DNA from: a virus
DNA: 25,363 bases
Reading direction: 5' to 3' (one strand)
IMG/VR virus record: IMGVR_UViG_3300034272_000558
Coordinates: 1 to 25,363 of that record
Part shown: positions 5,793 through 24,230 of the stretch, piece after piece
Layout: every line of letters starts with the position of its first letter
Position numbering within the stretch: the stretch's first letter is position 1
The notes under the pieces: model-generated
Seen by the model: only the letters and a program-made list of their open reading frames with translations
Told to the model about the DNA's origin: nothing
Databases searched by the model: none
Translations under genes and position numbers: made by a program

Positions 5793-5800
5793 TCTGTCGG

Positions 5801-6916
5801 TTACGCGATGTCGATAACCAAGGCAGCATTAAGCTGTTGAGCCGCAATCTGCCCCGTGTACGTCAGCGACTTATACATTGCGTAGCTGTCGGTCGGACGC
5901 GGCGGGGAGTGAGGCTTCGCCCATTCCTGTTCCATAGCCACAAGGTAAATGTGGTTCGGGTCCCAGATATAGGCGCGCTTCGCCAAACCGAGATCATCGA
6001 GAGACGGATCATAAACGATCTCGATACCGTCCCAAATGATCTTGCCGATGGACAGATCACGGTTGCCCGTGAAGCCGTTCATCGAGTACAGGCCGCCAGC
6101 ACGGAGTTCCTTTTCCATTTCGGCGTAAAATTCAGCGCCCGCGAAGAATTTCTTCGGGTTGCCGCCATAACGACGCAACTGACGAAACTCTTTCTGGAGC
6201 GTTTGGACGAGCGGCGAGGCTTCCTGTGCCGTCTTAGAAACGTCAACCGGAGAGCCGCCCCAAGCAGCGAGCGTGCCGTCCTTTGCAATGGCAGCAGCCA
6301 TAGCAGCGGTATAAGCACGGTTGCGCCACCACTTCGTCTTAGAGCGGTCAAGACCGCCGTAAGTACCCTGCGACGGATCATCGACAATCGCAGCGCGAAT
6401 GCCAGCGAGAGCCTTCGGGTCGGTTGCGCCATTGCCCCACATGAGGCCGTTCATGGTACGAGCGTACTGCTCACCAAGGTCGAACAGCTTTTCTTCAAAG
6501 ATGTTCGCCAACATGGTCTTTTCACGGCCCGAATGACGCGAGGTAGCGTCTGCCGGGTTCGCATCGTCGGTGATCGAGATACCGTCGATTTTCAGTTCCG
6601 TGTAAGTCATGGTGATACCAATGTGGTGTTCACGCCACGGATATGCAGCGCGCATCACATTGGACGGGGTGTAGTAACCCACAGTGTCGTTATGGGTGTA
6701 ACCCTTAACGCCGTCGTTCACGCCGCCAGCGCCAAAGTCACCTTTTACGCCGAGGGAGATGTCGCCCTTACCGCCGGGGAATTGCTTTTTCGTAGCTTCG
6801 AAAAATTCGAGCAGCGGCTTGGACTGAATGGACTGCTTATAAACAGTGCCACGGTTGAGGTAGAAATCGAGAGCCGAGTTGGCAATCGACTGAATTTCGC
6901 CGGGCGTAAAAGCCAT
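5801..6916 (-). CDS. Major capsid protein
   Basis: The 371-residue product starts MAFTPGEIQSIANSALDFYL, followed by an N-arm-like region (KPLLEFFEATKKQFPGGKGD). It then shows capsid features: YPWREHHIGITMTYTELKID, a helix with REKTMLANIFEEKLFDLGEQ, the YGGLDRSKTKWWRNR segment shared by many podovirus coat proteins, and a C-terminal strand region (RAYIWDPNHIYLV). I infer an HK97-type fold. It follows the scaffold gene by 19 bases and has a strong site (AGGAG seven bases upstream) within the GGAGTTGACC motif noted elsewhere. Order portal-scaffold-coat is standard. P22 coat is longer (430), so the insertion domain of P22 is probably absent or small here. Confidence 0.9.
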   Translation of the reverse strand: MAFTPGEIQSIANSALDFYLNRGTVYKQSIQSKPLLEFFEATKKQFPGGKGDISLGVKGDFGAGGVNDGVKGYTHNDTVGYYTPSNVMRAAYPWREHHIGITMTYTELKIDGISITDDANPADATSRHSGREKTMLANIFEEKLFDLGEQYARTMNGLMWGNGATDPKALAGIRAAIVDDPSQGTYGGLDRSKTKWWRNRAYTAAMAAAIAKDGTLAAWGGSPVDVSKTAQEASPLVQTLQKEFRQLRRYGGNPKKFFAGAEFYAEMEKELRAGGLYSMNGFTGNRDLSIGKIIWDGIEIVYDPSLDDLGLAKRAYIWDPNHIYLVAMEQEWAKPHSPPRPTDSYAMYKSLTYTGQIAAQQLNAALVIDIA

Positions 6917-6917
6917 C

Positions 6918-6927
6918 GGTCAACTCC
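6918..6927 (-). promoter_or_regulatory. Extended ribosome-binding motif GGAGTTGACC before the capsid gene
   Basis: GGAGTTGACC sits one base before the capsid ATG, so the GGAG core is seven bases from the start. The same ten bases precede the scaffold and terminase genes. Confidence 0.7.
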
Positions 6928-6935
6928 TGTCGCAT

Positions 6936-7994
6936 TTATGTGCGCGATAAACCGGCCTCGATTGCTTCGAGCATGTTTGAGGGTGCGGCGCGCACGTTTC
7001 CAGACGGGCGTTGTGAGCCGGACGGAGTAGGACGGGTTGGGTTGCGAGGGATCGCTTTTGAGAACACCGTATTGGCGAAATCGTAAGCTGCCTTTGCAAT
7101 CGCAACTGCGTCTTGCGGAGATTGAGGAACACCGTTCGCACGGATGATCCGTTCCGTTTCCCGTTCGATCACTTCGCGTTTAATGGCGTAATCCGGGTCG
7201 CGGCTTCGCAGGTTTTCTTCATATTGCCGAACACCGTCCAAGATCGCTTGATTGCGAGCTTGAGCCTCTTGTTCCGCAATGTGGTTTCTGGCGTTATCGG
7301 CCCGCGACTTCTCGATGGACGCTGCATGTCGCGCCTTCGCAAGTTCAGCGGCAATCTCAGGCGTCGTGTAACCCTCGTCCACTTTCTCTTGGAGATCGGC
7401 AGGAAGTTTTTTCCCGGCCAATTCCTGACAAAGTTCGACGTAGGGCATAACGCCTTCAAGGAACGTATTAGCGTCCCCTTTTTGGAGCGCCTGCCCAAGT
7501 GCGATGAGGATGTTTAGGTCCTCGTTGCGCAAGCCGGATTGCTGGATCGTTTCAGCATACGGCTTGTACTGTTCGACTTGAGACTGTAGCTCCCGCCGTT
7601 GCGCCCGGAACCATTCGATCCGTTCTCTCGTCTTCGGAGCTAGAGACTTCCATTCCTTACGGGAGAAATGACCGGGGTCAGTTTCTTCCTTTGGAGTTTC
7701 AGCCTGCGTGTCCTCTGACGCTGAGTCCGTCTCAGGGTCCTGCTCGTCACCGGATGAGGGGGGTTCGTCCTCAGAAGCCTTGGCCTCAACTGTCTCGGCT
7801 TTCGCCTCGTCAATCTTGTCCACTGCCTCGCTGACCACATCCAAAATCGAAGTCGGACCGTCGCCCTCTTTCGTCTCGGCTGTCTCAGCACCCGCATTAG
7901 CGCCCGCCGTTGCGCCTTCGGTTTCGACGGTATCGCCACCCTGAGCCTCGACAGGATCAGGTGCGTTATCTTCATTGTTAAGCGTGTCTGTCAT
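6936..7994 (-). CDS. Capsid scaffolding protein
   Basis: I start at the ATG at 7994 (352 residues), with GGGAG nine bases upstream; an in-frame TTG at 8024 would add ten residues but has a weaker claim. The first 110 residues are strongly acidic and low in complexity (Glu, Asp, Ala, Thr). A switch to helical coil occurs at WKSLAPKTRERIEWFRAQRR, and the helices continue through a long Ala/Glu/Arg-rich segment to about 310. The C-terminus is Pro/Ser/Arg-rich (NPTRPTPSGSQRPSGN) then a short helix, which is where scaffolds usually bind coat protein. Location between portal and coat, acidic helical composition and a length close to P22 gp8 (303) all fit an internal assembly scaffold lost on maturation. 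Confidence 0.8.
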   Translation of the reverse strand: MTDTLNNEDNAPDPVEAQGGDTVETEGATAGANAGAETAETKEGDGPTSILDVVSEAVDKIDEAKAETVEAKASEDEPPSSGDEQDPETDSASEDTQAETPKEETDPGHFSRKEWKSLAPKTRERIEWFRAQRRELQSQVEQYKPYAETIQQSGLRNEDLNILIALGQALQKGDANTFLEGVMPYVELCQELAGKKLPADLQEKVDEGYTTPEIAAELAKARHAASIEKSRADNARNHIAEQEAQARNQAILDGVRQYEENLRSRDPDYAIKREVIERETERIIRANGVPQSPQDAVAIAKAAYDFANTVFSKAIPRNPTRPTPSGSQRPSGNVRAAPSNMLEAIEAGLSRT

Positions 7995-7997
7995 TTT

Positions 7998-8028
7998 GGT
8001 CAACTCCCTCTCTTTATTGGTCAATTCC
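7998..8028 (-). promoter_or_regulatory. Two copies of the GGARTTGACC motif before the scaffold gene
   Basis: GGAGTTGACC (8007-7998) lies three bases before the scaffold ATG. A near copy, GGAATTGACC, lies at 8028-8019 and contains the alternative TTG start. The upstream copy shares ACAGGA plus TTGACC with the site before the capsid gene. Confidence 0.6.
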
Positions 8029-8047
8029 TGTCACGATTGCGGGCAAG

Positions 8048-10252
8048 CTAAACCGCCTGCCCGCCCGTGAAGTCATTGAGCTTCGGCGGTGGAACCGCCA
8101 TATCCCCGCCCTGTCCGCCATCGGTTGACGGAGCGTTGTTTGCCCCTTGCGCCCCTTGCGCCGCCGGATCGCCCTTGCGGGCTGCGGCGGCAGGGGAAGT
8201 CCCCGGCCCGCCTGCGCCCTTCGCCGTTGCCGTGTTCTGGCCTTGGATGGAGGGCAACCCGGCTGTAAACGCATCCTCAAACGGCAGGCGGTCATCGAGC
8301 CTGCGGAGAAGGTCGCGCACCACAAATTCAGGGTTCACGCCGGGAAGTTGGAGCAGATAGGGGTAAAGGCGTTCCGCGTTGGCAATGTCCAAAGCCTGAT
8401 TGGGGCGTCCGGTCGATCCGGCCTCAATCTCAAGGAACACCATGTCAGCGATTTGCTGGTGGCTCATCTGCGGCCAGACAGCGCCCGGACCGGCAATCTT
8501 TTGAACCGTCTCTAGGGCCAGATTGCCAAGCAAAATCTCCCCAGACGTTTTAGCCATCTCGGTCAACATCTCGGTTAGGTCGTCGATGTTGGACGCCATC
8601 TGCGTCATGCGGGAGCTTTCAGCGATGGAGCTTTCCGTCGCCGTCCCCTTCCCTACGCCGCCAAGATTGGCTTCCTGCACGCCGACCGTGCGCTCAATGT
8701 CCTGAAACGCTTGGCTCACATCGTAAAGGTTCGGGTCAATGCCCGGCATCCTGAATGGCTGCAAAAGGTCCTCGACCTTTTGGCCGGGCTGCAAGCCGGT
8801 TAGCTCGATGACGGCATTTGCCGGATGAGTTTTGAGTTTTTCAACATCCTCATCATCGAGCAGGCCAGCCGCCACAGCCGTCTTAGGCCGGTTGGCAATG
8901 CGATGCTCACGCAAACCCTGCCGCGCCCGGTTAATCTCCAACTGCATATCCATCATCAGACGGACATCGGACGGCGGAAAAATCTTTTCGTAGTGCGGGC
9001 AGTCATTCAGCGTGAGGGTGAACCACGGCCAGAACCGCGCCGTATAAACGTCCGGCGGGGTCGGCTCAGACAGGAAGTCGGGATAGCCGTCACAGACGAC
9101 ATACACCAAGCCATCCTTCTTATTGTAAATCTCCCACACGACACAGAAGACGCGATTGCGGTCGTCGCGTTGCGTCCCTGCAAACAGAGCCGACATCGTT
9201 TCATTCGACCCTTTGTCGTTAAACTGCGTCATGCCGCCGTTCTGACGGTTCAGCACGCCATCGACCGACGAATAGGCGATGAAGGAATTGCCAACGTCGA
9301 TCCCGTAAATCTCCTGCACCGCTTCGGGGAGAAGGACATATTCTTCGGCCACCCAATCCGCGCCGACAAAGCCGCGCAGATTGCGACACTTCGGATCAGG
9401 AATGATCGACGTACACTCAGGATAGCCGACCGTTAGGCCCTCGCGCAATACCACTTCCTCGCGCTGCAACCCTTGGATCGCAAGCTTGAGTTGCTCCGCG
9501 CCCGCGCCTTCCTCATCAATCTTCTTATCCGCCAAGTCGGCAGATAGGCGCTCGATGGTCGCAAGTTGCTGCGAATAGTCGTTGATCTTTTCTTGAGCCT
9601 CTGGCGTCAGCTTCATAATCCGTTGGAAGCCGACCTTCGCGTAGCCCACGCCGGTCACAATCGCCTGCCGCACCATACGCTTCATGCCTTGCTTGAAGTC
9701 GTATTGCTGTTCTTCGATGTTCTGGTCATAGACAATTTCGAGCGTTTGCCCGATCTTATCCATCATTTCTTGCTGCTCTTTTACAGCATTGTAATCCTGA
9801 ATGATTTGCGCGGCCTGCATGTCTCCGGGGTTCTGCGAAAACTTTTGCATAGCCAGCATGACAGTCTGCATGGAGCCGTCCCACACAGTCGCCATGAGTT
9901 GCTTTTTGCGCGTAGCCTTAATGCGAGGATTGCGAGCGTACAGACCCGCCGTCTTCTGGTTAACATGGCGCAGAATGACGTTAGCGACATAGCGATCCGC
10001 GTCGTGGCGGAATTTGCCTTTAGAGAACCATTGCTTGCCAGCGGCAAAGTCCATGTCCTCGCGCATCCGCTCAAAATCTTTGTAGTAATAGTTTTTGGCC
10101 CGCCGGACGTTCAGCATCCAGTAATTGACAAGCGAGGCCCGCCCCGGTGCCGGGACAGGAATTTCACGCTTTACAATCTCGCCTGTCTCAGCCTGCCCCA
10201 TGCCGGACGGCTCAAGAATTTCCTCAGAGGCTTCGTAATTTTTCATATCCAT
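8048..10252 (-). CDS. Portal protein
   Basis: This is a 734-residue portal, close to P22 gp1 (725). The N-terminal wing region has NYYYKDFERMREDMDFAAGK and QWFSKGKF, followed by a long helical region with coiled-coil character (about 110-255). A crown/stem region includes YPECTSIIPDPKCRNLRGFV and WVAEEYVLLPEAVQEIYGID, then a helix-rich zone with MMDMQLEINRARQGLREHRI. Residues 671-734 form a Gly/Ala/Gln/Pro-rich tail that is probably disordered. Portals form the dodecameric ring through which the terminase pumps DNA and on which the tail hub is built. The start is one base past the terminase stop; an ATG two codons later is an alternative. P22-type assignment is by length and gene order, so sequence homology needs an alignment. 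Confidence 0.85.
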   Translation of the reverse strand: MDMKNYEASEEILEPSGMGQAETGEIVKREIPVPAPGRASLVNYWMLNVRRAKNYYYKDFERMREDMDFAAGKQWFSKGKFRHDADRYVANVILRHVNQKTAGLYARNPRIKATRKKQLMATVWDGSMQTVMLAMQKFSQNPGDMQAAQIIQDYNAVKEQQEMMDKIGQTLEIVYDQNIEEQQYDFKQGMKRMVRQAIVTGVGYAKVGFQRIMKLTPEAQEKINDYSQQLATIERLSADLADKKIDEEGAGAEQLKLAIQGLQREEVVLREGLTVGYPECTSIIPDPKCRNLRGFVGADWVAEEYVLLPEAVQEIYGIDVGNSFIAYSSVDGVLNRQNGGMTQFNDKGSNETMSALFAGTQRDDRNRVFCVVWEIYNKKDGLVYVVCDGYPDFLSEPTPPDVYTARFWPWFTLTLNDCPHYEKIFPPSDVRLMMDMQLEINRARQGLREHRIANRPKTAVAAGLLDDEDVEKLKTHPANAVIELTGLQPGQKVEDLLQPFRMPGIDPNLYDVSQAFQDIERTVGVQEANLGGVGKGTATESSIAESSRMTQMASNIDDLTEMLTEMAKTSGEILLGNLALETVQKIAGPGAVWPQMSHQQIADMVFLEIEAGSTGRPNQALDIANAERLYPYLLQLPGVNPEFVVRDLLRRLDDRLPFEDAFTAGLPSIQGQNTATAKGAGGPGTSPAAAARKGDPAAQGAQGANNAPSTDGGQGGDMAVPPPKLNDFTGGQAV

Positions 10253-10253
10253 G

Positions 10254-11807
10254 TCACCAACCCTCGGAGCTTGAGGCCATCGAAATCATGCGGTTCTGAC
10301 GTTTAGTTTGCTGTTTCAGCCAACCAAACGTGCCGGGCTTGTCTATCTGCACAGGGGCAGACTGCCCCTTCGGCACATGCAGCTTCATCAAACCCATACC
10401 GATCAAAGACAGCGCATCCACAAAATCGTCGTGCGCCACTTGCGGGAATTTCAGGATTTGATCTTTGGCGTTCGGCCACCAAGGCGCGTACACCGGAAAG
10501 AAAACTTTGTTCATCGCCATGCGGCCAGAAATAGACGCAGCACGCGCCTGCTTATCGACGGCAGGGTGCGTCTCATCTATCGGCGCAAACGCGCCACGTT
10601 CCAGCATCCTCTTGCGAATGAACGGACCAAGAGACTTGGCAATCTGCCCCTTCTCGCCCCAGACCATCAGCGGCTTGTACTTGGCGACCAGATTAACGAA
10701 TGCCTCGACTACTTGCTCTGAATTACCGTGGTGCCACCAAACATCCGGCATGATCCAAATGTTCTGTTTCTCGTCGATCCCAACCGGCATGATGCAAGTC
10801 TTGTCTCGGTCCGATCCCGACGAGACAGCGAAGTCGGTCGATATGTAATAGCGGAGGTTTTGCGGTAGATCGGCAGGCTTATACTCTTGCAGCCAATCCA
10901 ACTGAAAGAACGCGCCTTCCTCCGGCGACGGACGGCACTGATAAAGAGCCGAGAAGCCGCGAGGATCGCCGCGCCGCATGTTCTCTAGGAAGTCAACGCC
11001 GAACCGGCTTTCCCACAACACTTCGCCCGGCTTGCGCCCAAGCGGGTCATCGTCCATCGCAAAAGCCGGAAGGTCGATCACTTCCCACTGATCAGCCTCG
11101 TCCTTGTCGTAATAAGAATTGGTCGGATCAGTCAGACGCCCCACCACATCGTCCGGGTGCCAGCGCGTCGTAATAATCATAATCGAACCGCGATCATCCA
11201 TGAGGCGGGTCTTCAACACTTGGTTGAACCACACCCACATCTTATCGCGCTCCAACTGGCTATCGGCCTGTTGGCGATCCTTAATCAAGTCGTCGCAGAT
11301 AATGCAGTGACCACCACGGCCAGTCAGCGAGCCGCCGACGCCGGTAAACACCAGAAGACCGCCGCCAGCCATTTCAAGCCGGTTAGCCGACATCGCGCCT
11401 TTCTTCGGCTTGGCGTCGGGGAAGATTTGTTTGTACGCCGGTAGCTTCATAAAATTGCGAACGGCGCGTCCAAAGTCGTATGAGAACCTTTCGTTGTAGG
11501 TCGAAAGGATAAGAGAACGATCAGGAAAGCGGCCAGCCATCCATGCCGGGAATATCTTAGACGACATCTCGGTTTTGCCGGAACGAGGAGGCATGTTGAC
11601 GATCAGGCGCTTAATCTCACCCTTCGCCACGGCTTCCAATTTCTCAGCAAGATAAACGTGGTGCTTCGCCGTCTCGTAGGTGGACAGGCGCGGATCAGCC
11701 TCACTGCCAGCAACAGGCTTCATCAGCTTGGCGAACGTAATCAGGTCCGTCTTAGCTTGACCGATTGCTTCAAGGCGCAGTTGCGCGAGTTCAATACGAT
11801 CATTCAT
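10254..11807 (-). CDS. terL: Terminase large subunit
   Basis: The 517-residue protein shows the complete two-domain terminase plan. The ATPase has Walker A at residues 72-80 (MPPRSGKTE), Walker B at 168-173 (CIICDD) and the coupling motif at 211-216 (IITTRW). The nuclease domain has its acidic residues at D325 (YISTDFAVSS), E385 (VWGEKGQ) and D461/D464 (HDDFVDALS). It drives DNA into the prohead through the portal encoded next and cuts the genome. The ATG overlaps the upstream stop as ATGA and has the GGAGTTGACC motif five bases before it. No small subunit is encoded directly upstream, which is unusual; candidates are the two small proteins at the right end of the window. Confidence 0.95.
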   Translation of the reverse strand: MNDRIELAQLRLEAIGQAKTDLITFAKLMKPVAGSEADPRLSTYETAKHHVYLAEKLEAVAKGEIKRLIVNMPPRSGKTEMSSKIFPAWMAGRFPDRSLILSTYNERFSYDFGRAVRNFMKLPAYKQIFPDAKPKKGAMSANRLEMAGGGLLVFTGVGGSLTGRGGHCIICDDLIKDRQQADSQLERDKMWVWFNQVLKTRLMDDRGSIMIITTRWHPDDVVGRLTDPTNSYYDKDEADQWEVIDLPAFAMDDDPLGRKPGEVLWESRFGVDFLENMRRGDPRGFSALYQCRPSPEEGAFFQLDWLQEYKPADLPQNLRYYISTDFAVSSGSDRDKTCIMPVGIDEKQNIWIMPDVWWHHGNSEQVVEAFVNLVAKYKPLMVWGEKGQIAKSLGPFIRKRMLERGAFAPIDETHPAVDKQARAASISGRMAMNKVFFPVYAPWWPNAKDQILKFPQVAHDDFVDALSLIGMGLMKLHVPKGQSAPVQIDKPGTFGWLKQQTKRQNRMISMASSSEGW

Positions 11808-12439
11808 CGGATGGTCAACTCCGACGATGCTTCGGCCAGCGCCCGCAGCGCGGCTTGCTCCACATATTGATCCGGCTTTTCAAGCCATAGAATGTGCATC
11901 AGGCCGACCCAAGCGCCGAGGCCGTTAGGGATCGAAGTCGCGCAAATCCATTTCACGCCGTCCTTCGCCATTGTCTGGTGCGGAACCTCGTTGCTATCGT
12001 TTGGGTCAAAGCAAATGCTCTGACCGTTCATCAGCGCCGCCGCGATCTTAATGTTCGAGCCTACCGATATGATCGGCCATGTCAGGCCAATGTCGATGCT
12101 CTTGAGATTTTCGCCCGAGAAGTCTGTCGTGTTCACCACTGTCTGCAAATTGTTATGCAGATCGACTGACCAGAGAATGCCGAATTTAGCACGGCTTTCC
12201 CGCACGACGCGGACAAGAACCTTCTGCCCGTTCTTCATATCGAGCTTCGGGCTTTTCAGGCTTTTCAAAACGTAGGTCGCAATCGCCTCACGTTCCACAT
12301 AAGTCATCACCCCGCCGAACGCGAGGACGGCAAGGAACACAAGCCCGGCAAACTGCCACGGGCTTGCTGCATAAGTCAGGACGGAGCTAACAATAGAAGC
12401 CGCCGCCCCCGGAGCGCCTTCTAGGTTCTCGTCATTCAT
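11804..12439 (-). CDS. Single-pass membrane protein of unknown function, between lysis genes and terminase
   Basis: I take the ATG at 12439 (211 residues) because it overlaps the stop of the 32-residue peptide and has GGAG just upstream; an earlier in-frame codon at 12463 adds eight residues. One clear membrane helix spans about residues 27-47 (WQFAGLVFLAVLAFGGVMTY). A beta-rich soluble domain of roughly 150 residues follows, with VLVRVVRESRAKFGILWSVD and two Cys (SICFDP, WICATS) that could form a disulphide if periplasmic. The end of the gene encodes the terminase ribosome-binding site and overlaps it by four bases. I do not recognise the family. Options include a lysis accessory factor or a superinfection-exclusion protein; neither is shown by the sequence. 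Confidence 0.75.
   Translation of the reverse strand: MNDENLEGAPGAAASIVSSVLTYAASPWQFAGLVFLAVLAFGGVMTYVEREAIATYVLKSLKSPKLDMKNGQKVLVRVVRESRAKFGILWSVDLHNNLQTVVNTTDFSGENLKSIDIGLTWPIISVGSNIKIAAALMNGQSICFDPNDSNEVPHQTMAKDGVKWICATSIPNGLGAWVGLMHILWLEKPDQYVEQAALRALAEASSELTIR
11813..11822 (-). promoter_or_regulatory. Extended ribosome-binding motif GGAGTTGACC before terminase
   Basis: The motif lies inside the last codons of the membrane protein gene, five bases before the terminase ATG. It is identical to the copies before the capsid and scaffold genes. Confidence 0.65.
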
Positions 12440-12530
12440 CCCCAATCTCCCGCCAAATAACATTTGCCAGAGCGAAAGCTAAAGCCGCCACTATCAACAT
12501 CGTCCCAATGAAAATCCCGACTATTTCCAT
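12432..12530 (-). CDS. 32-residue one-helix membrane peptide in the lysis cassette
   Basis: This frame was read by hand. It encodes MEIVGIFIGTMLIVAALAFA, then LANVIWREIGDE and a stop. Residues 3-25 are a single uncharged membrane helix and the tail is acidic. The start overlaps the endolysin stop by ten bases and the stop overlaps the next ATG by three (eight bases from that ATG to this stop), so the peptide links the lysis genes to the terminase operon without a gap. No other obvious holin is present in the cassette, so this peptide or the 211-residue protein could help pore formation or holin control. It is small for a holin. Gene reality is supported by the interlocked overlaps and the clean helix; the function is inference. 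Confidence 0.6.
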   Translation of the reverse strand: MEIVGIFIGTMLIVAALAFALANVIWREIGDE

Positions 12531-13150
12531 AGCTGCCACCAATGATGTTTTGGCGGTACGTCATCGTCGGGATGCTCGTATGGAGTCTCAGCGTCCGGCT
12601 TCTTTGCCGCCGTCAGCGCATTGGCGAAACAGCGATAATAGGAAGCAATAAGGTCGGCTCGGTCGCTGCCATTGATAATGTGGCGAGCGCCAACTGGATC
12701 ATCTCGATTGTCATTGAAATAGTCCGCTAGTTTCTTGCCGGTAAACCAGCCGTCTTTCATCCCTTCACAAATGATCTTAGCCGCGTAATCGCAGTGGAGA
12801 GCGAGTTCAGGGTGAGAAGCCAGATCAAAGCCGCATATTCCGCCAGCTTTTTCATAATTTGCCTTCCATGTTAGCTGGCAAAAGCCGCGACCGTAGTAGG
12901 TCATGCCGTTGCTTTCAGGCACGCCATACGGTCGGCCCTTGCCGTGTCCATATTCTTCAATCGGCTGCATGGTGTGAGCCGTTTCGTGATAGGCGGTGGC
13001 AAGCACATAGGCCAGCCACCGCGTATCGTCCTTAGACCGCTCTCTTTCCCACTCATCGAGGATCGCGCCCGTCCCTTCGACCTGATTGTTTGTCAGAACG
13101 TGGAATAGGCTCTGCCTTATGTTGTCGAAGAAGATTTTACGGTCGATCAT
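12521..13150 (-). CDS. Endolysin, GH19 chitinase-like muramidase family
   Basis: The 209-residue protein carries the GH19 (class I chitinase-like) signature of many phage endolysins: LAYVLATAYHETAHTMQPIE at about residues 46-65, with Glu56 as the likely general acid and Glu65/66 as the second acid, then YYGRGFCQLTWKANYEKAGG at 85-104. This family cleaves the peptidoglycan glycan chain. There is no signal peptide or membrane anchor at the N-terminus, so export should depend on a holin. The C-terminus (PPKHHWWQLWK) is His/Trp/Lys-rich and might touch membrane or lipopolysaccharide. The ATG overlaps the o-spanin stop (ATGA) and its end overlaps the 32-residue peptide. Confidence 0.9.
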   Translation of the reverse strand: MIDRKIFFDNIRQSLFHVLTNNQVEGTGAILDEWERERSKDDTRWLAYVLATAYHETAHTMQPIEEYGHGKGRPYGVPESNGMTYYGRGFCQLTWKANYEKAGGICGFDLASHPELALHCDYAAKIICEGMKDGWFTGKKLADYFNDNRDDPVGARHIINGSDRADLIASYYRCFANALTAAKKPDAETPYEHPDDDVPPKHHWWQLWK

Positions 13151-13389
13151 TTGTTAGGCTTCCAGCCGCAGACATTCATACCGATGTCGTTATGAATGCG
13201 GATTTCAATTCGCGTTTGCTGCGTATCGCGGTCGCTGTCGTAAATCGGCTGAAACAATTTACACTCAGCGTCGGATGAAAGGGTCGTTTTGGAGCAGTTT
13301 GTCAGGATCAGAAGCGCCATCACGCCGACGCACATCCTCAGCGCGGCCCTTTGCTTCGTTGTCATGTTGCTGCTGCTTTTGAATGGCAT
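13147..13389 (-). CDS. o-spanin-like outer-membrane lipoprotein (Rz1-like role)
   Basis: I start at the ATG at 13389, which has a very strong GGGGGAGG site just upstream (80 residues); an in-frame codon at 13458 is less likely. The N-terminus MPFKSSSNMTTKQRAALRMC is basic and is followed by a hydrophobic stretch and the lipobox LTNC, so the mature protein would be a lipoprotein. The mature part is short with two Cys and fits the CxLFxPIxxSxxDTxxT...HN...CGW pattern that I know from small lipoproteins encoded beside endolysins in alphaproteobacterial phages. It overlaps the i-spanin frame by 125 bases, a nested arrangement typical of Rz/Rz1. Together they would fuse inner and outer membranes at the end of lysis. 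Confidence 0.8.
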   Translation of the reverse strand: MPFKSSSNMTTKQRAALRMCVGVMALLILTNCSKTTLSSDAECKLFQPIYDSDRDTQQTRIEIRIHNDIGMNVCGWKPNK

Positions 13390-13492
13390 GTTCCTCCCCC
13401 TTTGAATAAGCGTGCCAATAGAATGCGCCGACTGCGGCGAGGATAACCCCCGCCGCAATCACATAGCGAAGCGCGTAAAGAGCCGGAAACAT
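13265..13492 (-). CDS. i-spanin-like inner-membrane protein (Rz-like role)
   Basis: The 75-residue product has one membrane helix near the start (YVIAAGVILAAVGAFYWHAY, residues 10-29), then a charged Gln/Lys/Glu/Arg-rich stretch (KGEEHAIQKQQQHDNEAKGR) suited to a periplasmic helix. It ends KLLQNDPFIRR. An N-terminal anchor plus a helical periplasmic tail, with a lipoprotein gene overlapping its second half in another frame, is the Rz/Rz1 plan. It is short against lambda Rz (153 residues). The ATG directly follows the TGA of the hydrolase gene with no separate strong ribosome site, so it is probably translated by coupling. A holin of this topology is a second possibility. Confidence 0.7.
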   Translation of the reverse strand: MFPALYALRYVIAAGVILAAVGAFYWHAYSKGEEHAIQKQQQHDNEAKGRAEDVRRRDGASDPDKLLQNDPFIRR

Positions 13493-14431
13493 TCAGGCAG
13501 CGTCCGCTTCTTCGCGCAGGCTTTCGACTTCCGAGAAGTTCAACTCGGGCACGCGCCTGATCCAAAGCATCGGCTTCTTCGTGTCCTTGTCGAGATACTT
13601 GACGGTTGTCCAAAGAGTTTCGTCCTGACCCGTCACATCGGCGGGCCAACCCTTCGATGTCTGTGTGCCGTAAAGCGTATGAGCCATGCCAATCAGGTTT
13701 GCGGCCTTAGCGACCACGTTCTTGTCCGTCACGTCTTTGGCGTATGCCTTGTTAAGCGATAGACGGATGAAACGATCCGGCGAGCCATTGCCGCCGGGAA
13801 CGCCGAGGAAGCCATTGCCGTGACCGATCTTGTCGAAATCGGCGTTGACCCAAGTGCGTTTTTCTTCGCCCTGCGGGTTCACGTTGAGATAATTGCGGAG
13901 GTTCGTCATGTGCCACGAATATTCGGGACCGTTCGTCATAACGCCAAGCGGGCAGTTATAAACAGTCGGGATGCCATCGTGAAACTCGATCACGATTGCA
14001 GCGCCGCTCGTGTCAGTGAAAAAGAAATGGCAAGTCGCCTGCATGTTGGCCGGACCCTTGAAGATCGGCTTTTCGCTGGCAAGACGGTCCTGTACTTCCT
14101 TAACCGAACCGCATTCCGACATGACGTAAATCGGCCAAGTCAGAACGTCAGTCGTGCCGCCGCTCTTAGCCATTGAATTGTCGATGTTGTAGAGGAGCGA
14201 GAACGAGAGGCCAGACTGATTGATTGCTTCCTGCACGCCGCAGATAATCAAGGCTTCGACGTTGCAGACAGCCTTCACGTCCTGCTTGAACGTGTAGAGT
14301 TTGCCAAGGATCGAATGGCCTGTGCCCGAACGGAAGTTTCGGACAGCGTCGCCCACGAGGGTGATGTTGAAGTCCATCGTGCGGGCCACTGCCTGCACCT
14401 TGTCGCCTTTAAGAGAGATAACGCTGCACAT
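13493..14431 (-). CDS. Choloylglycine hydrolase / penicillin V acylase family Ntn-hydrolase
   Basis: I start at the ATG at 14431 (312 residues, AGGAG eight bases upstream), which gives MCSVISLKGD. After Met removal Cys2 is the N-terminal nucleophile of this family. The rest of the site is present: Arg17 and Asp20 in ARTMDF, Asn71 in INQSGL, Asn167 in VMTNGPEYSWHMTNLRNYL, and Arg220 in VPGGNGSPDRFIRL. Members cleave linear amide bonds: bile-salt conjugates, penicillin V, N-acyl homoserine lactones, N-acyl amides. No signal peptide is visible, so it should fold in the cytoplasm and leave at lysis or in the virion. It lies two bases after a fibre gene and abuts the i-spanin gene. The substrate cannot be read from sequence. 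The family call is strong; its biology in a phage is open. Confidence 0.88.
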   Translation of the reverse strand: MCSVISLKGDKVQAVARTMDFNITLVGDAVRNFRSGTGHSILGKLYTFKQDVKAVCNVEALIICGVQEAINQSGLSFSLLYNIDNSMAKSGGTTDVLTWPIYVMSECGSVKEVQDRLASEKPIFKGPANMQATCHFFFTDTSGAAIVIEFHDGIPTVYNCPLGVMTNGPEYSWHMTNLRNYLNVNPQGEEKRTWVNADFDKIGHGNGFLGVPGGNGSPDRFIRLSLNKAYAKDVTDKNVVAKAANLIGMAHTLYGTQTSKGWPADVTGQDETLWTTVKYLDKDTKKPMLWIRRVPELNFSEVESLREEADAA

Positions 14432-14433
14432 TT

Positions 14434-17400
14434 TCAAGTCTCCTGTGGGATATAAATGTTCATTGAATTACCCCAAGGACCAAGGTTGTGCTTGTAGTCA
14501 TTGCGGCCAAACACTGTGTAAGAGCCCGGTCCCTTGAGTTGCAGAACCATCGAACCGGCAGGCATTTTTACGCGGTCCGTGGTTGTCGTTCCGCATTGCG
14601 CTGCGATTTCGATGAAGTCGGCTTGCCCCATCACTTGCCATTCAACGAGCAGCTTGTAGCCGGGCTGCGCTGTCAGCTTGAGGATTTTGGGCGGCGTCAG
14701 ATCGAAGTTTTTAACCGTGACAGCGACCTTATCGCTTTGACCAGACGGCAGACCATCGCGCACACTTTCAATCGTGACGGTGTAATCGCCGGGATAAATG
14801 TCCGGCGGGTATGTAACGTCAGGGTCTTGCGAAACCCATTTCAGCGTATCGCCGTCAAACTCTTTGACAGTGGTGCTGCCAGACGAAAGAGCCGTGATCC
14901 GCAAAATGTATTTCTCGATCTTCGGCTCATCCGTTGACCAAGCAACCGCCATCTGCCACGGCTTCGGACACATGGCATAATCGAGCTTTGGCGGCTTTGG
15001 TGCCTTCGTCTCAGGAATGTCAAAGCGCACAACGCTAGAGGCGTTGTAGTCCCACCCGAGAGCATCGACGTAGGCGAAATAGACGCCACCGGGGAGCGGG
15101 TCATCTGTCCGATAGACAAGCGGCTCTGCGTCCGTGCTTGTGCGCTGCGTCATCAGGATATTGCCGTGGCCGTCCTTAACGACAAAGCCGTAGCCAAAGT
15201 AATCCTGATAATCCTGATCGGGGCTGGCGCTTTCCCATTCGACGGTAAAGCTGTGCGCGTCGTAATAGGATTTGCGGATGATCGGCTTCTCAGGCGGGGG
15301 CGGTTCGTCAGGAACCGTCTCGTCATTCGAGATCATCCACGAATAGCCGCCAGCGCCTTCCTTCGTCTGGAAGTCGAAAATGATGATGTAATGGCGACCG
15401 TCCTGCCATTGCTCAAGATTGAACGAGGCACGGAACGTATCGCCTTCCTCAGTGAAATTGAGGTTAGTGATTTGCTGCGGCCAGAAATCCTCTGGGTCAT
15501 CAGCCGGTCCGGTATAGGTGAACACAATCGCATAGAGGTTCGTCACTTCCTCGTGCGTCAGCAACGCAATGTCGAGAAGTACGTCCATCTTGCCGGTCGC
15601 TGGATCGAACTTATTGTAGCTGACAACAGGGCGACGAAGCGGCGCTTGCGCGTTAGGCTTCACACGGATCGCGCCACCGGGCTTGCCTTTGACGCCATCT
15701 GTGCTGATACCGCCAAACCGCACAAAGTATTCCGTGCCGTTGTCTAGCTGTAGGTTTTCTGTCAGCGATTTATTGAGAGGCGCGAAGAACGGCAGGCCCT
15801 CATCGTCGATCCCGTCAACGTCGAAGTAATACTCCCAACCTCGCGTTGTCAGCTCGCGTGTCTCGCCGCCCTCAACAGGCGTGATTTGAGCGTATAGCTC
15901 CTGATACTGCGAAGCATCGACAAAGGCCGGAAGGCGAACGTGCGCCTTAAAGCCGTCATAGGTCGGCATCGAGCGAATGACAATCGGAGGCGGAATGTCG
16001 CCCTTGTCGAAGATCGCAATGGTGCGCGTGTCGCCAGCATGGTTGTAGAAATTGAACCCATACTGCTCAATGCGAAGCTCATACTCGCCAGCGCGAACAG
16101 GAACCCTAAACTCGCAATCCCATTGGCCGGGGTTGCCGTAAAGCACTTCCTCAATCGGCTCGCTCAACAGATCGCCAGAGATCGTGCAGCGCGTCCAGAA
16201 TACTTGCTCATGTGGGTCTTTGTTCGTCCAAGAGACGGAAATGCCCTTGGTGGTCGCATCGACCGTGGAAATGGTCGGGCCATAGATGACCGGCGCAAGC
16301 GGCGGGTCGAAACAATAAATGCTCTCCGGCGAGGAACCGTCAGCCGTCTCGAACGACAGCCAGAAATACGACTTCCAGCCATCGCGCTTGTACGGCTCAG
16401 GAAAGACGCCAACAATTTCATCGCCGTCAATCGCCCATTTCACATCGCCAGAAACGCCAATGCCGACTTCATGGAGGAACGGCAGCGCCTCGCTTTCATC
16501 GTAAAACAGGACGTAATAGGTAACAGATTTCAGATCGGCAGGCTTCACACCGTCCGGCAGCGTGAAATGTACCGTGTAGCGTTCTTCGTCCTTTTCCCAA
16601 CGCAAGACGTTAGGCGAGTGCAGCGGAGCCTTATCAGAAGGCGTTACCGTCACGCTCTGCCCGTATGGCGACATGCGTTGCTGCTTGCTATTCGTATAAG
16701 GTTTCCATGTGACAGGCTTGCCGTTCTCGAACTTGCCCGTCCCTAGATTGTCAGGACCGAACTTCTTGCGCCATGCCTGATTGTAAAACAGAAGATCGTC
16801 GGGCTCGTATTCATCATCGACGCCAATCTGAATGAAGCGCCACGAATAGCCGACCTCTGCAATGAAGGTTGCGCCCTTAGTCGAACTTTCAAAGCCCCAT
16901 GTTTCGACATTCTCAATGAACGTGCCTGCCTGCGGCTTAAAGAAAAACCGGAAGCCGCCATTCATCGGGATTGCCCGCGTGATGACAGGCGGCGGGGGCA
17001 TTGGAACCGGATAAACCGGCGTCTTCACAAAACCCCAAATCGCAACGCGGATCGGGATGCTGGTAATTGTCGAAGTCTGGATCGCCTTCAACACAATCGC
17101 ATCGCGGGTCGGCGTCAGGGTCGCCGTGACCGTCCAGCCGTTGATCGGGATATTGCCACCGCGATTAGCCTCAAGTGTCGCAGATGCTTGAAACGCATCG
17201 GTGAACTTCGGATTATCTGTCAGAGGCAGAAGCAATTTGACTTGAACACCTTGCGTCGTGTTCAAAGCAGTCGCGTCCGTAATGACCTTCACCACTTGCA
17301 ACGCAAGCGAAACGCCATTTTTGCCGGGGAAAATCTGGTAAAATTGCCCCGTTCCGTCCACGACCTTCTGCATCGTGGAATTGTTCAGCATCGTGCCGAA

Positions 17401-17940
17401 CAACTCATCGGCTGTCAGCGCAACGTCCTCATAGCCTTGGCTCATGCCGACCAAAGCAGCCGGAGGATAGAGCGTATCAGGCGGCAAACGCTCCCAACTG
17501 GCGATCCCGTCAGCGCCACCACCGCCACCGCCGGTCGCGTTGATCGTGCCGTCGCGGTCGATGAACACATTGCGTCCCGGCTTCACGCCGCCGACGCGAT
17601 CAACAGATGCAATGACAGGAGGAAATTCAAGCGGCTTGTTCTTAATGTCAGCCCAATCAGGCGAACCGCCCTCGCCGCCCTCGCCGTTCAGCGTGCCGTC
17701 TTTGTCGATAGACAGATTGCGGCCAACCTTGATGCCGCCAAGCGTGTCCTTCGATGCAATCGGAGGCGGGAAATTCTCAGGCTTGTTGCGAACGTCTTTC
17801 CAATCGGGAGGAAGTTGGATCACTTCCCAACTGTCACCGTCCCATTGGAAAGCCTTGCCGTTCGGCGCAATGAAAATGTCGCCAATCTTCGGATCGGTCG
17901 GGAATACGATTTCACCTGCCTGTCCCATACCGATCCTCAT
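14434..17940 (-). CDS. Large beta-sandwich repeat fibre / adhesin-like virion protein
   Basis: The product is 1168 residues. Residues 15-40 ([20 protein letters not shown]) resemble the short capping motif common in phage fibres. Two copies of a DW..I.NKP..FPP.IAS module follow (45-89 and 94-138), then a Gly-rich linker and a region (150-305) of unknown fold. From about 315 to the end I count eight Pro-introduced beta-rich segments of roughly 100 residues, starting near 315, 438, 546, 650, 766, 880, 980 and 1081, each with a VxW or similar strand, consistent with fibronectin III/Ig-like domains. Such repeats are typical of host-recognition fibres. The ATG overlaps the collagen-fibre stop as ATGA; an ATG four codons later (17928) has a better-placed GAGG. 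A hub-attached second fibre is the best reading. Confidence 0.8.
17527..17808 (-). repeat. Two tandem DW/NKP fibre modules in the 1168-residue protein
   Basis: Residues 45-89 and 94-138 align with the pattern DW..I.NKP..FPP.IAS...GG.K.GRN..ID.DGT.N. The third relative is in the collagen fibre at 19203-19337. Each copy ends in a Gly-rich linker. Confidence 0.8.
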
Positions 17941-20900
17941 TTCTTCATCGCATCGACTTCCGCCTTCAAGGCGGCAAGCTGCAAGCGCATTTCTTCCATC
18001 TCGATTTTGGCGTGCTTCGCCGCATTCACGAGTGCATAGACAACCGCAGTCGCATCGACGGTTTTAACCTTCGTCACTTCCTGCGTGTCTGGATTAACCC
18101 AATCGCGCTCGCCAACGCACCATTCCGCGAATGGCGTTTTCAGCAATTCATCAGCAATGAAGCCGACATAAAGTTTGCCGTTGTCAGGCGTGTCGTATTC
18201 ACCGTTGAATTGGTAGATTTTTGGGTTTGTCAAAAACAGCGCATCTGCACCCAAATCAAACGGGACGATGCTATCGGCTTGCTTGGTGCGAATGTCGGAG
18301 CTATCCGCCCACATGCCGCCGCCCGGTTGATACCCTTTTGAGCCGAGCGTCAGGTTATAGCCGCCGCGAATGGTTTTATCGGCCTGAACAACAAGCGAAA
18401 GCTGGTTGTTGTAGAAAATGCCCCATTCATTTGCGCTGACAGCGCCCATCGTGACGTTGTTAGAAAACTTCAACCCTTGCGGGACGTAAGGCGTGTTGTT
18501 GAGCGTGATCGTTCCGCTGGCGGTCAATCCAGCATTAAACGTAGCGGAATTGCCAAACGTCGCCGCGCCATTGTGCTGCGTTGCGGCAAAAGTCGTTTGT
18601 TGCTGGAACGTATTTGTTTGCGAGAAAATGTTTGCCGCGCTTTTCAGCGCCGCATCTGTCACCTTCTGCAAGGCGCTGTCAGCATTCGTCTTAGCCTGAT
18701 TGGCTGTCGAATAAGCCTGATCGGCCTTTGAATTGACGGAATTGAGATCAGCCTGCGAAGCCGCCTCAACATCAACCGCTTTCAGCACAACATCGCCGGT
18801 CTTGCCGTTGACCGACTTCACGCCGCTCGATGAACCGCTCGGTGTTTCCCACCGCCCGTCACCGCGCAGATAAGTCGCCGCGCTTGGTGTGCCGCCAGCC
18901 TCGATGTCAGCCGTGGTGTGCGTATGCTTCGTCGCAGCCGCGCCAACATCAGCATTGTTCAACTGCACAACGCCGATCTTGCCGTTGACCGACACAACCG
19001 CATTCGCTGGCAGCTTTGTCCAGACGCCCGTGCCGTCGAGATAATCGCCAGCCTCCGGTACGCCGGTCCCCAATCGCGCAGGCGGGAAAACGCCAGCCGT
19101 AATGTCGTTCGCAACGTGCGTGTGAACCTTCAAGGCCGCGCCAACATCGCCAGCGCCAAGCGTCACATCGCCGGTCTTTTGGTTGACGCTCGTAACACCA
19201 ACATCGACCGACGCGCTGATCACGCCGTTCGTGTCAATGTCGATGTTCGGGCCAGCCTTAACGCCGCCGACAACGGTTGAAGACGCAATAACCGGCGGGA
19301 ATTTCGTCGGCTTATTCGTGATCTGCGTCCAATCAGTCGTGCCGGGATCGCCCTTGTCGCCCTTCGGACCCTGCTCGCCTTGCGGACCCTGCACGCCTTG
19401 GTCGCCCTTCGGACCTTCCGGCCCACGGTCGCCCTTCAAGCCTTGCGGGCCTTGATCGCCTTTCGGACCTTCTGAGCCTGTATCGCCTTTTGGGCCTTGC
19501 TCGCCGGGGTCGCCCTTCGGCCCCAACGGCCCTTGCTTGCCCTGCGGGCCTTCCGGTCCAACGTCGCCCTGCGGGCCCGTCTCACCGGGATCACCTTTCG
19601 TACCGGCAGGACCCTGCTTACCAGCCGGACCCTGATCGCCCGGGTCGCCTTTCGGGCCTGTCTCGCCGGAGTCGCCTTTCGGACCAGCCGGTCCTTGAAT
19701 GCCTTGCGGACCCTGATCGCCACGGTCGCCCTGTGCGCCGGGATCGCCCTTATCGCCGCGCGGACCCTGATCGCCCTGCTTGCCTTGGATGCCTTGGTCG
19801 CCCTTCGGCCCCTGAATGCCCTGCTCGCCCTTCGGGCCGGGGTCGCCTTGGTCGCCCTTAGCGCCAGTATCGCCTTTCGGACCCTGAATGCCTTGCGGGC
19901 CTTCCTTGCCTTCCGGCCCCTGCTTGCCTTCCGGCCCTTGCGGACCGTCAGCGCCAGTGTCGCCTTTCAGGCCGCGCTCGCCCTGATCGCCCTTCGGCCC
20001 TTGGATGCCTTGCGGACCCTGCTTGCCCTCAGCGCCCGTATCGCCTTTCGGCCCTTGAATACCCTGAGCGCCCGTATCGCCCTTGTCGCCCTTGTCGCCT
20101 TTCGCGCCCTGAATGTCGCCAAGATCAGCCCATCCGTCAGCGTCGAAATTGCCGTCCTCTTTCACGCCAGCGACAGCGCCGACGAAATTGAACACATGGC
20201 CCCAAAGGGGGTCTTGCCGGTTTGCAGGCTGGAACACCAACGCCTGCCCGACTTTCAGCGTAATATCCGCTGCCGGATTGCCCGGACTATCCCAATCCTT
20301 CGGGAAGAAGCCGTTTTTCGGCAGATCGCTCGGCTTCTTGCTCACGCCGAACGTGCCGATGATCACCGTCGAGGTGCCAGCATCGCCCTTGTCGCCCTTC
20401 GGACCTTGGATACCCTGCGGACCCTGCTTGCCTTCGATGCCTTGAGGACCTTGCTTACCGTCAGCGCCGGTCGGTCCTTGAATGCCTTGCTCACCCTTCG
20501 GACCCTGATCACCCTTCGGACCCGGCTCACCCTGAGCGCCAGTGTCACCCTTCTGACCCTGAGAACCGGGATCGCCCTTCGGACCCTGCGAGCCAGTGTC
20601 GCCCTTAACGCCTTGCGGCCCTACGTCACCCTGAATACCACGATCACCCTGATCGCCTTTCGGACCCTGAGCGCCTACAGCACCATCGTCACCCTTAGGC
20701 CCTTGAATGCCCGGATCACCTTTCGGACCAGCCGGGCCAACGTCACCCTGCAAACCGCGCTCGCCAGCCGGACCAACCGGACCCTGCTCGCCCTGCTTGC
20801 CGTCCGGGCCAATCGGACCTTGCTTGCCTTCCGGCCCTTGATCGCCTTTCGGACCCTGCTCGCCCTGAATGCCCTGCTCGCCGCGCTGGCCCTGATCGCC

Positions 20901-23900
20901 CTTAGCGCCAGCCGGTCCCTGAATCCCTTGGTCGCCCTTATCGCCCTTCGGACCCTGAATATCGCCAATGTCAGACCAGCCGTTCACGGCCCATTGATCG
21001 CCGTTCCGGTTCTGCGTCCCAACATAATTGAAGACATGCTTGTAGAGCGGGTCAGCCGTATTAGCCGGGACATAAACAAGCCCCTCGCCAACCGTGAATT
21101 GGATCGGCTTAGGCGGCTTGCCAGCCCCTTCCCAATCTTGCGGGATCAAACCATTCGCAGGCAGATCGCTCGGCTTCTTAACCGAACCAAACGTCCCAAC
21201 AATGTACGAGGAAGCGCCCGGATCGCCCTTGTCACCCTTCGGTCCAGCCGGACCCTGCGGCCCATCAGGACCCTGCGGGCCAACGTCACCATCAGGTCCA
21301 GCCGGACCCTGATCGCCCTTAGGACCCGGATCGCCCTGCTTTCCTTGAATACCCTGATCGCCCTTAGGACCTTGCGGCCCCTGATCGCCCTTCGGCCCCG
21401 TAGGACCCGGATCGCCCTGCGGTCCAATCTCGCCCTGATCACCCTTCGGTCCCGTCTCGCCAGCCGGTCCCTGTGGACCCTGCTCGCCCGTATCACCCTT
21501 CGGACCATCAGGCCCAATATCGCCCTGCGGACCAGCCGGACCAACTGGCCCCTGCTCGCCCGTATCACCCTTCGGTCCTGCCGGACCCTCTGGCCCTTTC
21601 GGACCCTGTTCGCCCTGATCACCTTTCGGTCCTACCGGACCCGGATCACCTTGCGGACCAGCATCGCCCTGATCACCCTGCGCCCCACGCTCGCCCGGAT
21701 CACCCTTCGCTCCCGCTTCCCCCTGCGGCCCCGGATCGCCTTTCGGACCAGCCGGTCCTACGTCACCCTGATCGCCCTTAGCGCCAGCCGGACCCTGAAT
21801 GCCCTGCTCACCGCGCTCACCCTGCGGACCCTGCGGACCAATCGGACCCTGAATACCCGGATCGCCCTTATCACCCTTCGGCCCCTGAATGTCCCCAATG
21901 TCAGACCAGCCATTAACCGCCCATTGGACGCCACGAATCTGGACCCCAACATAGTTAAACACATGGCCGTAAAGCGGATCGCCGCTGTCAGCCGGGATAT
22001 AAACCAACCCCTCACCAACAACGAACTGGATCGGCTTAGGCGGCTTGCCCGGACCATCCCAATCTTGCGGAATAAGGCCGTCCGGCGGCAAATCAGCAGG
22101 CGTCTTCGTGTCGCCAAACGTGCCGACAATATAGGATGATGTACCCGGATCGCCCTGATCGCCCTTCGGCCCCAAAGGACCCTGCGGACCCTGCGGACCC
22201 TGCGGACCTACATCACCGTCCGGCCCAATCGGCCCTTGCTCACCCTGCGGACCAACATCGCCCTTCGGCCCTGTCGGACCGGGATCACCCTTGGGACCCG
22301 TTTGGCCCTGATCACCTTTAGGACCAACGCTGCCCGTATCACCCTTCGGCCCAATCGGACCCTGATCCCCCTTGGGACCCGTTTGACCAGTTTGACCAGC
22401 CGGACCCGTCGAACCCGTATCTCCCTTGGGACCCGTAGGACCCGGATCACCCTGCGGCCCGCGCTGACCAGCATCCCCCTTCGGACCCGTCTCACCCTGA
22501 TCGCCCTTAATGCCCTGCGGTCCCTGCGGACCAGCATCGCCCTTCTGACCGGGAGGACCCGTTTCACCAGCCGGTCCCGTAGGACCGGGATCGCCGCGAT
22601 CACCCTTAATACCCTGCGGCCCTGCCGGACCACGCTGGCCCTCCGGCCCCTGTGGCCCTTGCGGGCCAGCATCACCCTGCTTGCCCTGTGGACCAGCCGG
22701 ACCCGTATCGCCCTTCGGCCCTAATGGACCCTCCGGCCCTGCCGGACCCTGATCCCCCTGATCACCTTTCGGACCTTCCGGCCCCGTCTTACCCTGCGGG
22801 CCGACCGGACCCTCAATCCCCTGCGGCCCAATCGGACCATCATCGCCCTTCGGCCCACGCGGTCCAACCGGCCCAACAGGACCCGTCTCACCAGCCGGAC
22901 CCGGAGGACCCTGCAAGCCCATCGGACCAATCGGCCCCTGCGGACCTTCCGGCCCCTCAGCCCCCGATACACCAACCCAATTCGCAAACTCAGGCGAGGA
23001 ACCGTAAAGGACGAACATCGCAAGGTTCGTGCTTTTCAGCCAGAGAGTGCCGATGGGAACGCCTGTCGGCGGGCTCATCGAAATATATAACTGCGCGCCC
23101 GGCTTAATCGTCTTAATCGCCGCATCAACGATGCTGTTCACCTGACTGACATTCGTCGCGCTGTCGCTCGTAAAGCCAGCCGGAACCCTCACCGTCCCAC
23201 TAAATTGCGGGCTATCAAGGTCAGCCTTGAGGTCGTATTTGTCGTTAAAGTCGAGGATTTGGTCAGTCGTGTGCGTGTGCTTCGTTGGTGCAGCGCCAAC
23301 GTCAAAGTAGTTTAAGACAACATCGCCAACCTTGCCGTTGACAGACGTAACCGCTCCGCCGCCACCGCCGCTCGAAACTAGCTCAATCCACCGCGAGCCG
23401 TCCCAAACATACATAAACTTCGCGTTGAGATTGAAATACAACGCGCCAGCCTCAAGCGGCCTGCCGCGATTGTCCGTGCTAGGGGCTGTCGTTTTCGCGC
23501 CCAAATACCGCTTGTCAAAATCGCTGACCAACTCCTCAATATGCGCGATTTTCTCGTTAATATCCTGAGCCGTCTGATCCGCCTGATTAGCCCAAAACTT
23601 GGCCGACCAGTGATCGCCAGTCACACCCATGACAGCAAGGATGTTCGGCGGAATTTTCCCCGGCAGATACTCCGCCCATGCCTGACAAACTAACGCCCAA
23701 TCTTGCGCTTCGGCGGAGACTTCCTCGGCGGCTTGGCGATGCTCTTTGGTTTGCCGCTTGCCCTCGTCGATTTCGACGATGACCCTTTGGGCCGCTTCGA
23801 CGGCGACGGCAATCCTGCCGAGCGCGCTGTCAGCCTCTCCCTTAATAAAGTCCACATCCGCCGTAACACTTGCATAAACAGCCTCCGTCCCAATCCTCGC

Positions 23901-24230
23901 AGCCTCAGCATTGTCCTTCGACCGCTTCGCGTCCTGCGCCGCCCCTCGCGCATTCACAACCATCGGGTTAAGACGGCCCTGCAATTCCTTCTCAATGTCG
24001 TCCAGAATTTCAGGCTTTAACTGATCCGCGCCAATAACCTCCGCAGCCAGCGCGCCGTCCTCACGAAGCAACGGTTGCAGCGCGTCAACAAGGCTACTGA
24101 TCGCCTCGGCATGGTTGTTAAACTGCGCGTCCAATGCAGGACCGGGCGTCTGCTCGCCACTGTGGTCCCGGCTAAATTCAGTGAAATTAAACTTCCGCTG
24201 CGGGGGCTTGATAACAGTGGGTCCCGGCAC
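17937..24230 (-). CDS. Giant collagen-like tail fibre with S74 chaperone domain
   Basis: This is 2097 residues, starting with GTG at 24230 (AGGAG nine bases upstream). Residues 1-80 form an attachment-like N-terminus ([20 protein letters not shown]), followed by coiled helices to about 240 and fibre motifs ([20 protein letters not shown]). Four uninterrupted Gly-X-Y blocks (91, 74, 64 and 85 triplets) are separated by three copies of an 88-residue module. After residue 1630 come a DW/NKP module, four SVNGK..DV.L...DVGA motifs (three with HTH, including the N-terminal one near 294), a beta-rich tip region and a peptidase S74-type domain with SSDIRTK (Ser1978-Asp1979) and GFIADEL. S74 domains trimerise fibres and usually cleave themselves off. 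It is probably the main receptor-binding fibre, with a collagen triple-helix shaft. Confidence 0.92.
17940..18317 (-). other. Peptidase S74-type intramolecular chaperone domain of the fibre
   Basis: Residues 1972-2097 carry the SD.R.K hallmark (S1978, D1979, R1981, K1983), a NPKIYQFN strand, the GFIADEL motif and a closing coiled coil ([20 protein letters not shown]). Family members release the domain by self-cleavage near this Ser after trimerisation. Confidence 0.8.
19203..19337 (-). repeat. DW/NKP module shared with the neighbouring fibre protein
   Basis: Fibre residues 1632-1676 ([33 protein letters not shown]) match both modules at 17527-17808 in the next gene. The module sits right after the last collagen block. 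Confidence 0.8.
19344..20108 (-). repeat. Collagen block 4: 85 Gly-X-Y triplets
   Basis: Residues 1375-1629 keep glycine at every third position without a break. GPKGD, GPQGIQ and GDKGDPG are frequent. Confidence 0.95.
20109..20378 (-). repeat. Globular module C between collagen blocks
   Basis: Residues 1285-1374. It is the most diverged of three copies: [37 protein letters not shown], and [11 protein letters not shown] at the end. Confidence 0.85.
20379..20954 (-). repeat. Collagen block 3: 64 Gly-X-Y triplets
   Basis: Residues 1093-1284 are continuous Gly-X-Y with no phase break. This is the shortest block. Confidence 0.95.
20955..21218 (-). repeat. Globular module B between collagen blocks
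   Basis: Residues 1005-1092, very close to module [67 protein letters not shown]. Confidence 0.88.
21219..21884 (-). repeat. Collagen block 2: 74 Gly-X-Y triplets
   Basis: Residues 783-1004 are continuous Gly-X-Y and rich in charged KGD, GER and GEQ triplets, which can stabilise bacterial collagen without hydroxyproline. Confidence 0.95.
21885..22145 (-). repeat. Globular module A between collagen blocks
   Basis: Residues 696-782: [61 protein letters not shown]. Similar modules occur in other collagen-containing phage fibres. Confidence 0.88.
22146..22964 (-). repeat. Collagen block 1: 91 Gly-X-Y triplets
   Basis: Residues 423-695 are continuous Gly-X-Y and form the longest block. The N-terminal half is richer in GPV/GPI/GPQ triplets, the C-terminal half in GPKGD. 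Confidence 0.95.

Follow-up and report, generated by a model that had tools for sequence, protein, structure and literature searches.

The locus and its late operon

The stretch of viral DNA analysed here, hereafter the window, is a virus contig of 25,363 bases (IMGVR_UViG_3300034272_000558) that carries an intact gene for a member of the choloylglycine hydrolase (CGH) family within a late operon (Table 1). The operon runs from a 2097-aa fibre through a 1168-aa fibre-like protein, the CGH-family amidase, an i-/o-spanin pair, a GH19 endolysin and a 219-aa protein to the terminase, portal, scaffold and capsid genes. As a spanin pair with a lipobox is a mark of a Gram-negative host, the host of this phage is taken to be Gram-negative.

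Table 1. Coordinates in the window of the amidase gene, its start region and the neighbouring late genes
Feature	Position	Strand	Basis
2097-aa collagen-repeat tail fibre	17937..24230	-	profile and PHROG search
1168-aa fibre-like protein, adjoining the amidase upstream	14434..17940	-	weak PHROG matches; fibre role inferred from position
Start region: Shine-Dalgarno AGGAG, fibre TGA (14434-14436), amidase ATG (14429-14431)	14429..14445	-	
CGH-family (PF02275) N-terminal-nucleophile amidase, 312 aa, Met-Cys start, without signal peptide	13493..14431	-	profile, alignment, model
i-spanin-like gene, N-terminal membrane segment	13265..13492	-	inferred from position and overlap
o-spanin, Rz1-like, lipobox LTNC, overlaps the i-spanin gene	13147..13458	-	
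Endolysin, GH19 chitinase-like	12521..13150	-	profile and PHROG search
219-aa protein, hydrophobic N-terminal segment, phrog_31287	11804..12463	-	
Terminase large subunit	10254..11807	-	49.5% to Microcystis phage Mae-Yong1326-1; marks the phage group

The amidase gene reads on the minus strand from an ATG at 14431 to a stop at 13493, giving 312 aa, and the ATG is preferred as the start over an in-frame TTG further upstream because of the placement of an AGGAG 8 nt ahead of it, within the final codons of the fibre gene. The TGA of the fibre gene ends 2 nt ahead of the amidase ATG, and the ATG that opens the i-spanin-like gene comes immediately after the amidase TGA. The initial annotation had singled out the interval 13493-14431, which does correspond exactly to the intact CGH reading frame, on the minus strand, the plus strand having stops there. 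Its placement of the gene between fibre and spanin genes agrees with the 1168-aa fibre-like gene upstream and the i-spanin-like gene downstream, and the 'overlapping late operon' that it described is indeed a late operon, but one that is tight and non-overlapping at the amidase, the ATGA overlap lying between the two fibre genes. In a scan of the amidase region for promoters and terminators, matches were no more numerous than in shuffles.

On both sides the amidase gene shares a unit with same-strand phage genes no more than 2 nt away, its GC content is uniform with that of the neighbouring genes, and its codons are phage-like, with an adaptation to the phage core of 0.81 that only the capsid gene exceeds (0.83). 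Operon spacing, codon use and synteny together back the earlier claim that this is a phage gene and not a chance insertion. An assembly chimera or a misclassified bacterial contig might be suspected from a single metagenomic contig of which the viral-contig scans found no second copy, but this is extremely improbable in view of the close spacing to phage genes, the uniform GC and about ten other genes that share their order with homologues in known phages.

Elsewhere in the window, the 2097-aa fibre contains a non-collagen module (YIVGTFG...PKPIQF...HVFNYVG) in three copies between collagen stretches. The gene at 2848-3318, in the head/tail module, matches the 'internal virion protein' family phrog_308 and is conserved across related phages, its counterpart in the Microcystis phage being annotated as an N-acetyltransferase.

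Family membership and predicted fold

The protein matches the Pfam family CBAH (PF02275; MEROPS C59) over residues 2-282 with an E-value of 7e-33 and 115 bits, the curated cut-off being 20.4, and a chance match is thereby excluded. It lies far below the cut-offs of two NCBIfam equivalogs, scoring 102.5 bits against 350 for the bile salt hydrolase (BSH) equivalog NF038245 and 97.6 bits against 600 for the YxeL-type penicillin V amidase equivalog NF058572. Its best match in a sequence search of the PDB is the penicillin V acylase (PVA) of B. sphaericus (1e-21). An AlphaFold2 model of the amidase (mean pLDDT 85.6, pTM 0.87) gives Z of about 31, with 278-291 residues aligned, against structures of PVAs and BSHs, including the B. 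subtilis PVA (Z 31.5 over 278 residues) and the B. longum BSH (Z 31.4 over 288 residues).

The amidase is thus a divergent phage member of a known enzyme family, and its identity as a CGH-family N-terminal-nucleophile (Ntn) hydrolase, which draws on the predicted structure, is very probable. The initial annotation's assignment to choloylglycine hydrolase and penicillin V acylase homologues is upheld by the PF02275 match, the catalytic set and the predicted Ntn fold. Two outcomes had been named as speaking against it, the lack of an Ntn fold and membership of a non-enzymatic family without the catalytic Cys; what was found is the predicted fold, Cys2 in place and matches that are enzymatic.

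The active site

All six residues listed for the family site at the outset, namely Cys2, Arg17, Asp20, Asn71, Asn167 and Arg220, are found at those places, and the remark that the gene shows no decay holds, the reading frame being intact and every catalytic residue present; Asn71, however, is not the oxyanion residue. In an alignment of 60 sequences (A6), comprising the amidase and 59 bacterial and phage homologues, C2, R17, N71, G74, H135, N167, W173 and R220 never vary, and position 20 holds either Asp or Glu. The catalytic residues of the C. perfringens BSH are Cys2, Arg18, Asp21, Asn81, Asn175 and Arg228, and PVAs have an aromatic residue in place of the BSH Asn81 (PMC8066178). The equivalents in the amidase are Cys2, Arg17, Asp20, Tyr81, Asn167 and Arg220, the oxyanion position being assigned to Tyr81 by alignment to 3pva and occupied by an aromatic residue in 57 of the 60 sequences. 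The amidase therefore has, in Tyr81, the aromatic oxyanion residue of a PVA, and its active site is PVA-like at this single discriminating residue. An assignment as a bile salt hydrolase was rejected, since Tyr81 stands where BSHs have Asn.

Compared with most relatives, the amidase is shorter in the loops that follow Tyr81 and precede His135. Model confidence is low in the pocket loops (residues 85-92 and about 121-130), and for this reason the substrate pocket is not readable from the model. Segment 181-213 is of full length, as it is in the enzymes of Gram-positive type that carry the tetramer assembly motif (rule from PMC8066178). The N-terminus has no hydrophobic stretch or signal peptide, unlike the relatives from Salmonella and from a second viral contig, L017 (IMGVR_UViG_3300032561_002131).

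Relatedness and origin of the gene

Among sampled relatives, identity to the amidase reaches about 30%. The amidase sits on a very long tree branch (3.44), and its placement within the family is ambiguous. In a tree test, grouping with the Gram-positive PVA clade received a p-AU of 0.63 and grouping with the L017/Gram-negative set one of 0.216, neither being rejected for this long branch. No donor was found among 385 alphaproteobacterial genomes, in which the best identity was 34-36% over part of the protein only; in a prophage search for a host, four of these 385 genomes held a related terminase, at 36-39%.

The terminase and capsid led to relatives of the phage itself, among them dozens of IMG/VR contigs as well as Microcystis phage Mae-Yong1326-1 and Rhizobium phage RHph_N65. 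In 50 of these related records no PF02275 match was present, a count limited by fragments, 17 of the records being 44-53 kb long. In one related phage (L169), the fibre gene directly abuts an endolysin homologous to that of the amidase phage with nothing between them, which identifies the amidase as added to a slot whose content varies. The IMG/VR relative with the closest terminase (L002) has, between its fibre genes and the terminase, a gene at 6565-7413 for a 282-aa protein with a PEP-CTERM sorting motif at its end; this motif is a signal for surface sorting in bacteria and is unusual for a phage.

Carriage as a passive cargo gene (moron) taken from a bacterium and having no effect on the phage would accord with its absence from those 50 related records and the occurrence of this version in one phage, but the phage-like codon use, the exact fit to the operon and an active site kept intact despite extreme divergence from the sampled bacterial relatives make it very unlikely. 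A recent passive capture is disfavoured because it predicts a close donor and a foreign composition. Judging from these sequence features, the gene looks long resident in the phage.

Distribution among other viruses

Single-sequence pattern scans of viral contigs returned no close relative of the amidase, and a scan of 2.9 million viral contigs with five CGH alignments yielded one other record, L017, a rarity that is indicative only, as the scans require exact short motifs. In L017, a cargo island at 5674-11363, between scaffold and capsid genes, holds a secretory lipase (PF03583), a DUF1275 membrane protein, two CGHs and a small secreted protein. The amidase is without a match in PHROGs, and its best match in the BFVD structure library is a giant-virus TANGO2-like protein at TM 0.44, which is no real counterpart. 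A search of openly available papers found no bacteriophage CGH, PVA or acylase described as an auxiliary gene. The absence of a PHROG match and of a BFVD counterpart, with none in the 50 related records, fits the initial impression that the gene belongs to no standard phage module.

Nine matches in a 'Phages' collection, eight of them from a single series of Turkish wastewater records and the ninth a faecal scaffold, were not counted as phage CGHs; they are unannotated and flagged UNVERIFIED, and their CGHs group with bacterial enzymes. The OR84xxxx/OR85xxxx 'phage' records of GenBank from Turkish wastewater resemble bacterial contigs and call for caution in counts of phage genes.

Proposed function

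Enzymes of the CGH family use Cys2 to attack the carbonyl of an N-acyl amide, releasing an acid and an amine. Our preferred reading, which we hold tentatively and rate somewhat short of an even chance, is a functional CGH amidase carried as adapted cargo, a late cytosolic N-acyl-amide hydrolase with N-acyl homoserine lactones (AHLs) as the first candidate substrates. The phage lineage would have taken up the amidase as cargo, in the slot of varying content that separates fibre from lysis genes, where it later became adapted. A host aminopeptidase would take off Met1, exposing Cys2 as the nucleophile. The chemistry expected by homology is activation of Cys2 by Arg17 and Asp20, an oxyanion hole made up of Asn167 and the backbone of Tyr81, stabilization of the transition state by Arg220, and splitting of an N-acyl amide into acid and amine. 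Late and probably strong synthesis without a signal peptide should let the enzyme build up in the Gram-negative cytosol, from which it would be spilled when spanins and endolysin lyse the cell. The likeliest substrates may be small N-acyl amides of the host population, AHLs first, whose loss could lessen quorum-sensing-dependent defence or receptor change in the infected cell and its neighbours.

The absence of an export signal, unlike in the sampled Gram-negative relatives, points to targets in the cytosol or the lysate. The cytosol is where AHLs are both made and sensed. Their cleavage by some CGHs is documented for AtPVA, PaPVA, Slac1/2 and L. plantarum PVAs (PMC8066178). Being cytosolic and cut by several CGHs, AHLs are the leading substrate candidates. 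The narrower proposal, that a signal-less PVA-type CGH quenches AHLs in the cytosol and then in the lysate, disarming the quorum-regulated anti-phage defence of neighbouring cells, we judge unlikely; no rule for telling AHL-active CGHs from others by sequence is known to us. Against the preferred reading, release by lysis only would help other phages equally, and the amidase is strongly divergent (branch 3.44, identity about 30%), this version occurring in one phage only.

The position of the gene directly after two fibre genes, in one operon with them, suits a different role, in which the amidase would be packaged with or bound to the fibres and would act at adsorption or entry, either extracellularly or in the periplasm, for example on envelope N-acyl lipids or capsule N-acyl groups. 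A further point in its favour is A284L of the Chlorella virus PBCV-1, annotated as a choloylglycine hydrolase and listed as a virion protein (PMC3281028). Association with the virion is nevertheless quite unlikely, given that the amidase has no fibre-binding or structural domain beyond the CGH domain, model matches covering residues 2-310. CGH enzymes, moreover, act on small amides, and to our knowledge none has a polymer substrate.

The missing signal peptide and the PVA-type Tyr81 would equally suit a cytosolic metabolic role apart from signalling, in which fatty acids or amines are freed from host N-acyl amino acids or lipoamino acids, or an N-acyl antibiotic is detoxified. Late lytic genes, however, seldom serve metabolism, and we consider such a role rather unlikely. 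As to detoxification, beta-lactams act in the periplasm, away from a signal-less enzyme, although CGH enzymes with beta-lactam activity exist (PMC9207391).

If AHLs are cleaved, the phage would possess in the amidase a natural enzyme that counters quorum-regulated phage defence; if AHLs are not the substrate, some other N-acyl metabolite would matter during infection. The CGH family is well known from gut and soil bacteria. Here it appears as a well-adapted late phage gene, with one other carrier contig among the 2.9 million scanned.

Comparison with known systems

Among characterized enzymes, the PVAs of Bacillus and Lysinibacillus (3pva, 2oqc; MEROPS C59) share with the amidase nearly the whole-chain fold (Z about 31), the Met-Cys start without a signal peptide, Asp20, the oxyanion Tyr and the length of the assembly region; the amidase differs in its identity of about 24% to them, its shorter loops after Tyr81 and before His135, and its carriage by a phage. 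The BSHs of B. longum (2hez) and C. perfringens (2bjf) have the same fold and Cys/Arg/Asp/Asn/Arg set, but the amidase has Tyr81 in place of their Asn and falls under the BSH cut-off. The Gram-negative CGHs (PaPVA 4wl2, AtPVA 5j9r and Shewanella 5x8z) share the superfamily fold at a lower Z of 26.7-27.8 and match the amidase more weakly in sequence, and the Gram-negative CGH relatives sampled have N-terminal export signals, whereas the amidase has none.

Among viruses, L017 likewise carries CGHs in a genuine tailed phage, with terminase, capsid, holin and endolysin, but its CGHs are a tandem pair with signal peptides on another tree branch, and the phage is unrelated to the one described here. 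A284L of PBCV-1 belongs to a eukaryotic algal virus, is likened to the amidase by its annotation and gave no clear BFVD match. The phage anti-quorum-sensing proteins Aqs1 and Qst (PMC12988980) are not of the CGH family and target the proteins LasR or PqsD; they resemble the amidase in the outcome proposed for it, the lowering of host quorum sensing.
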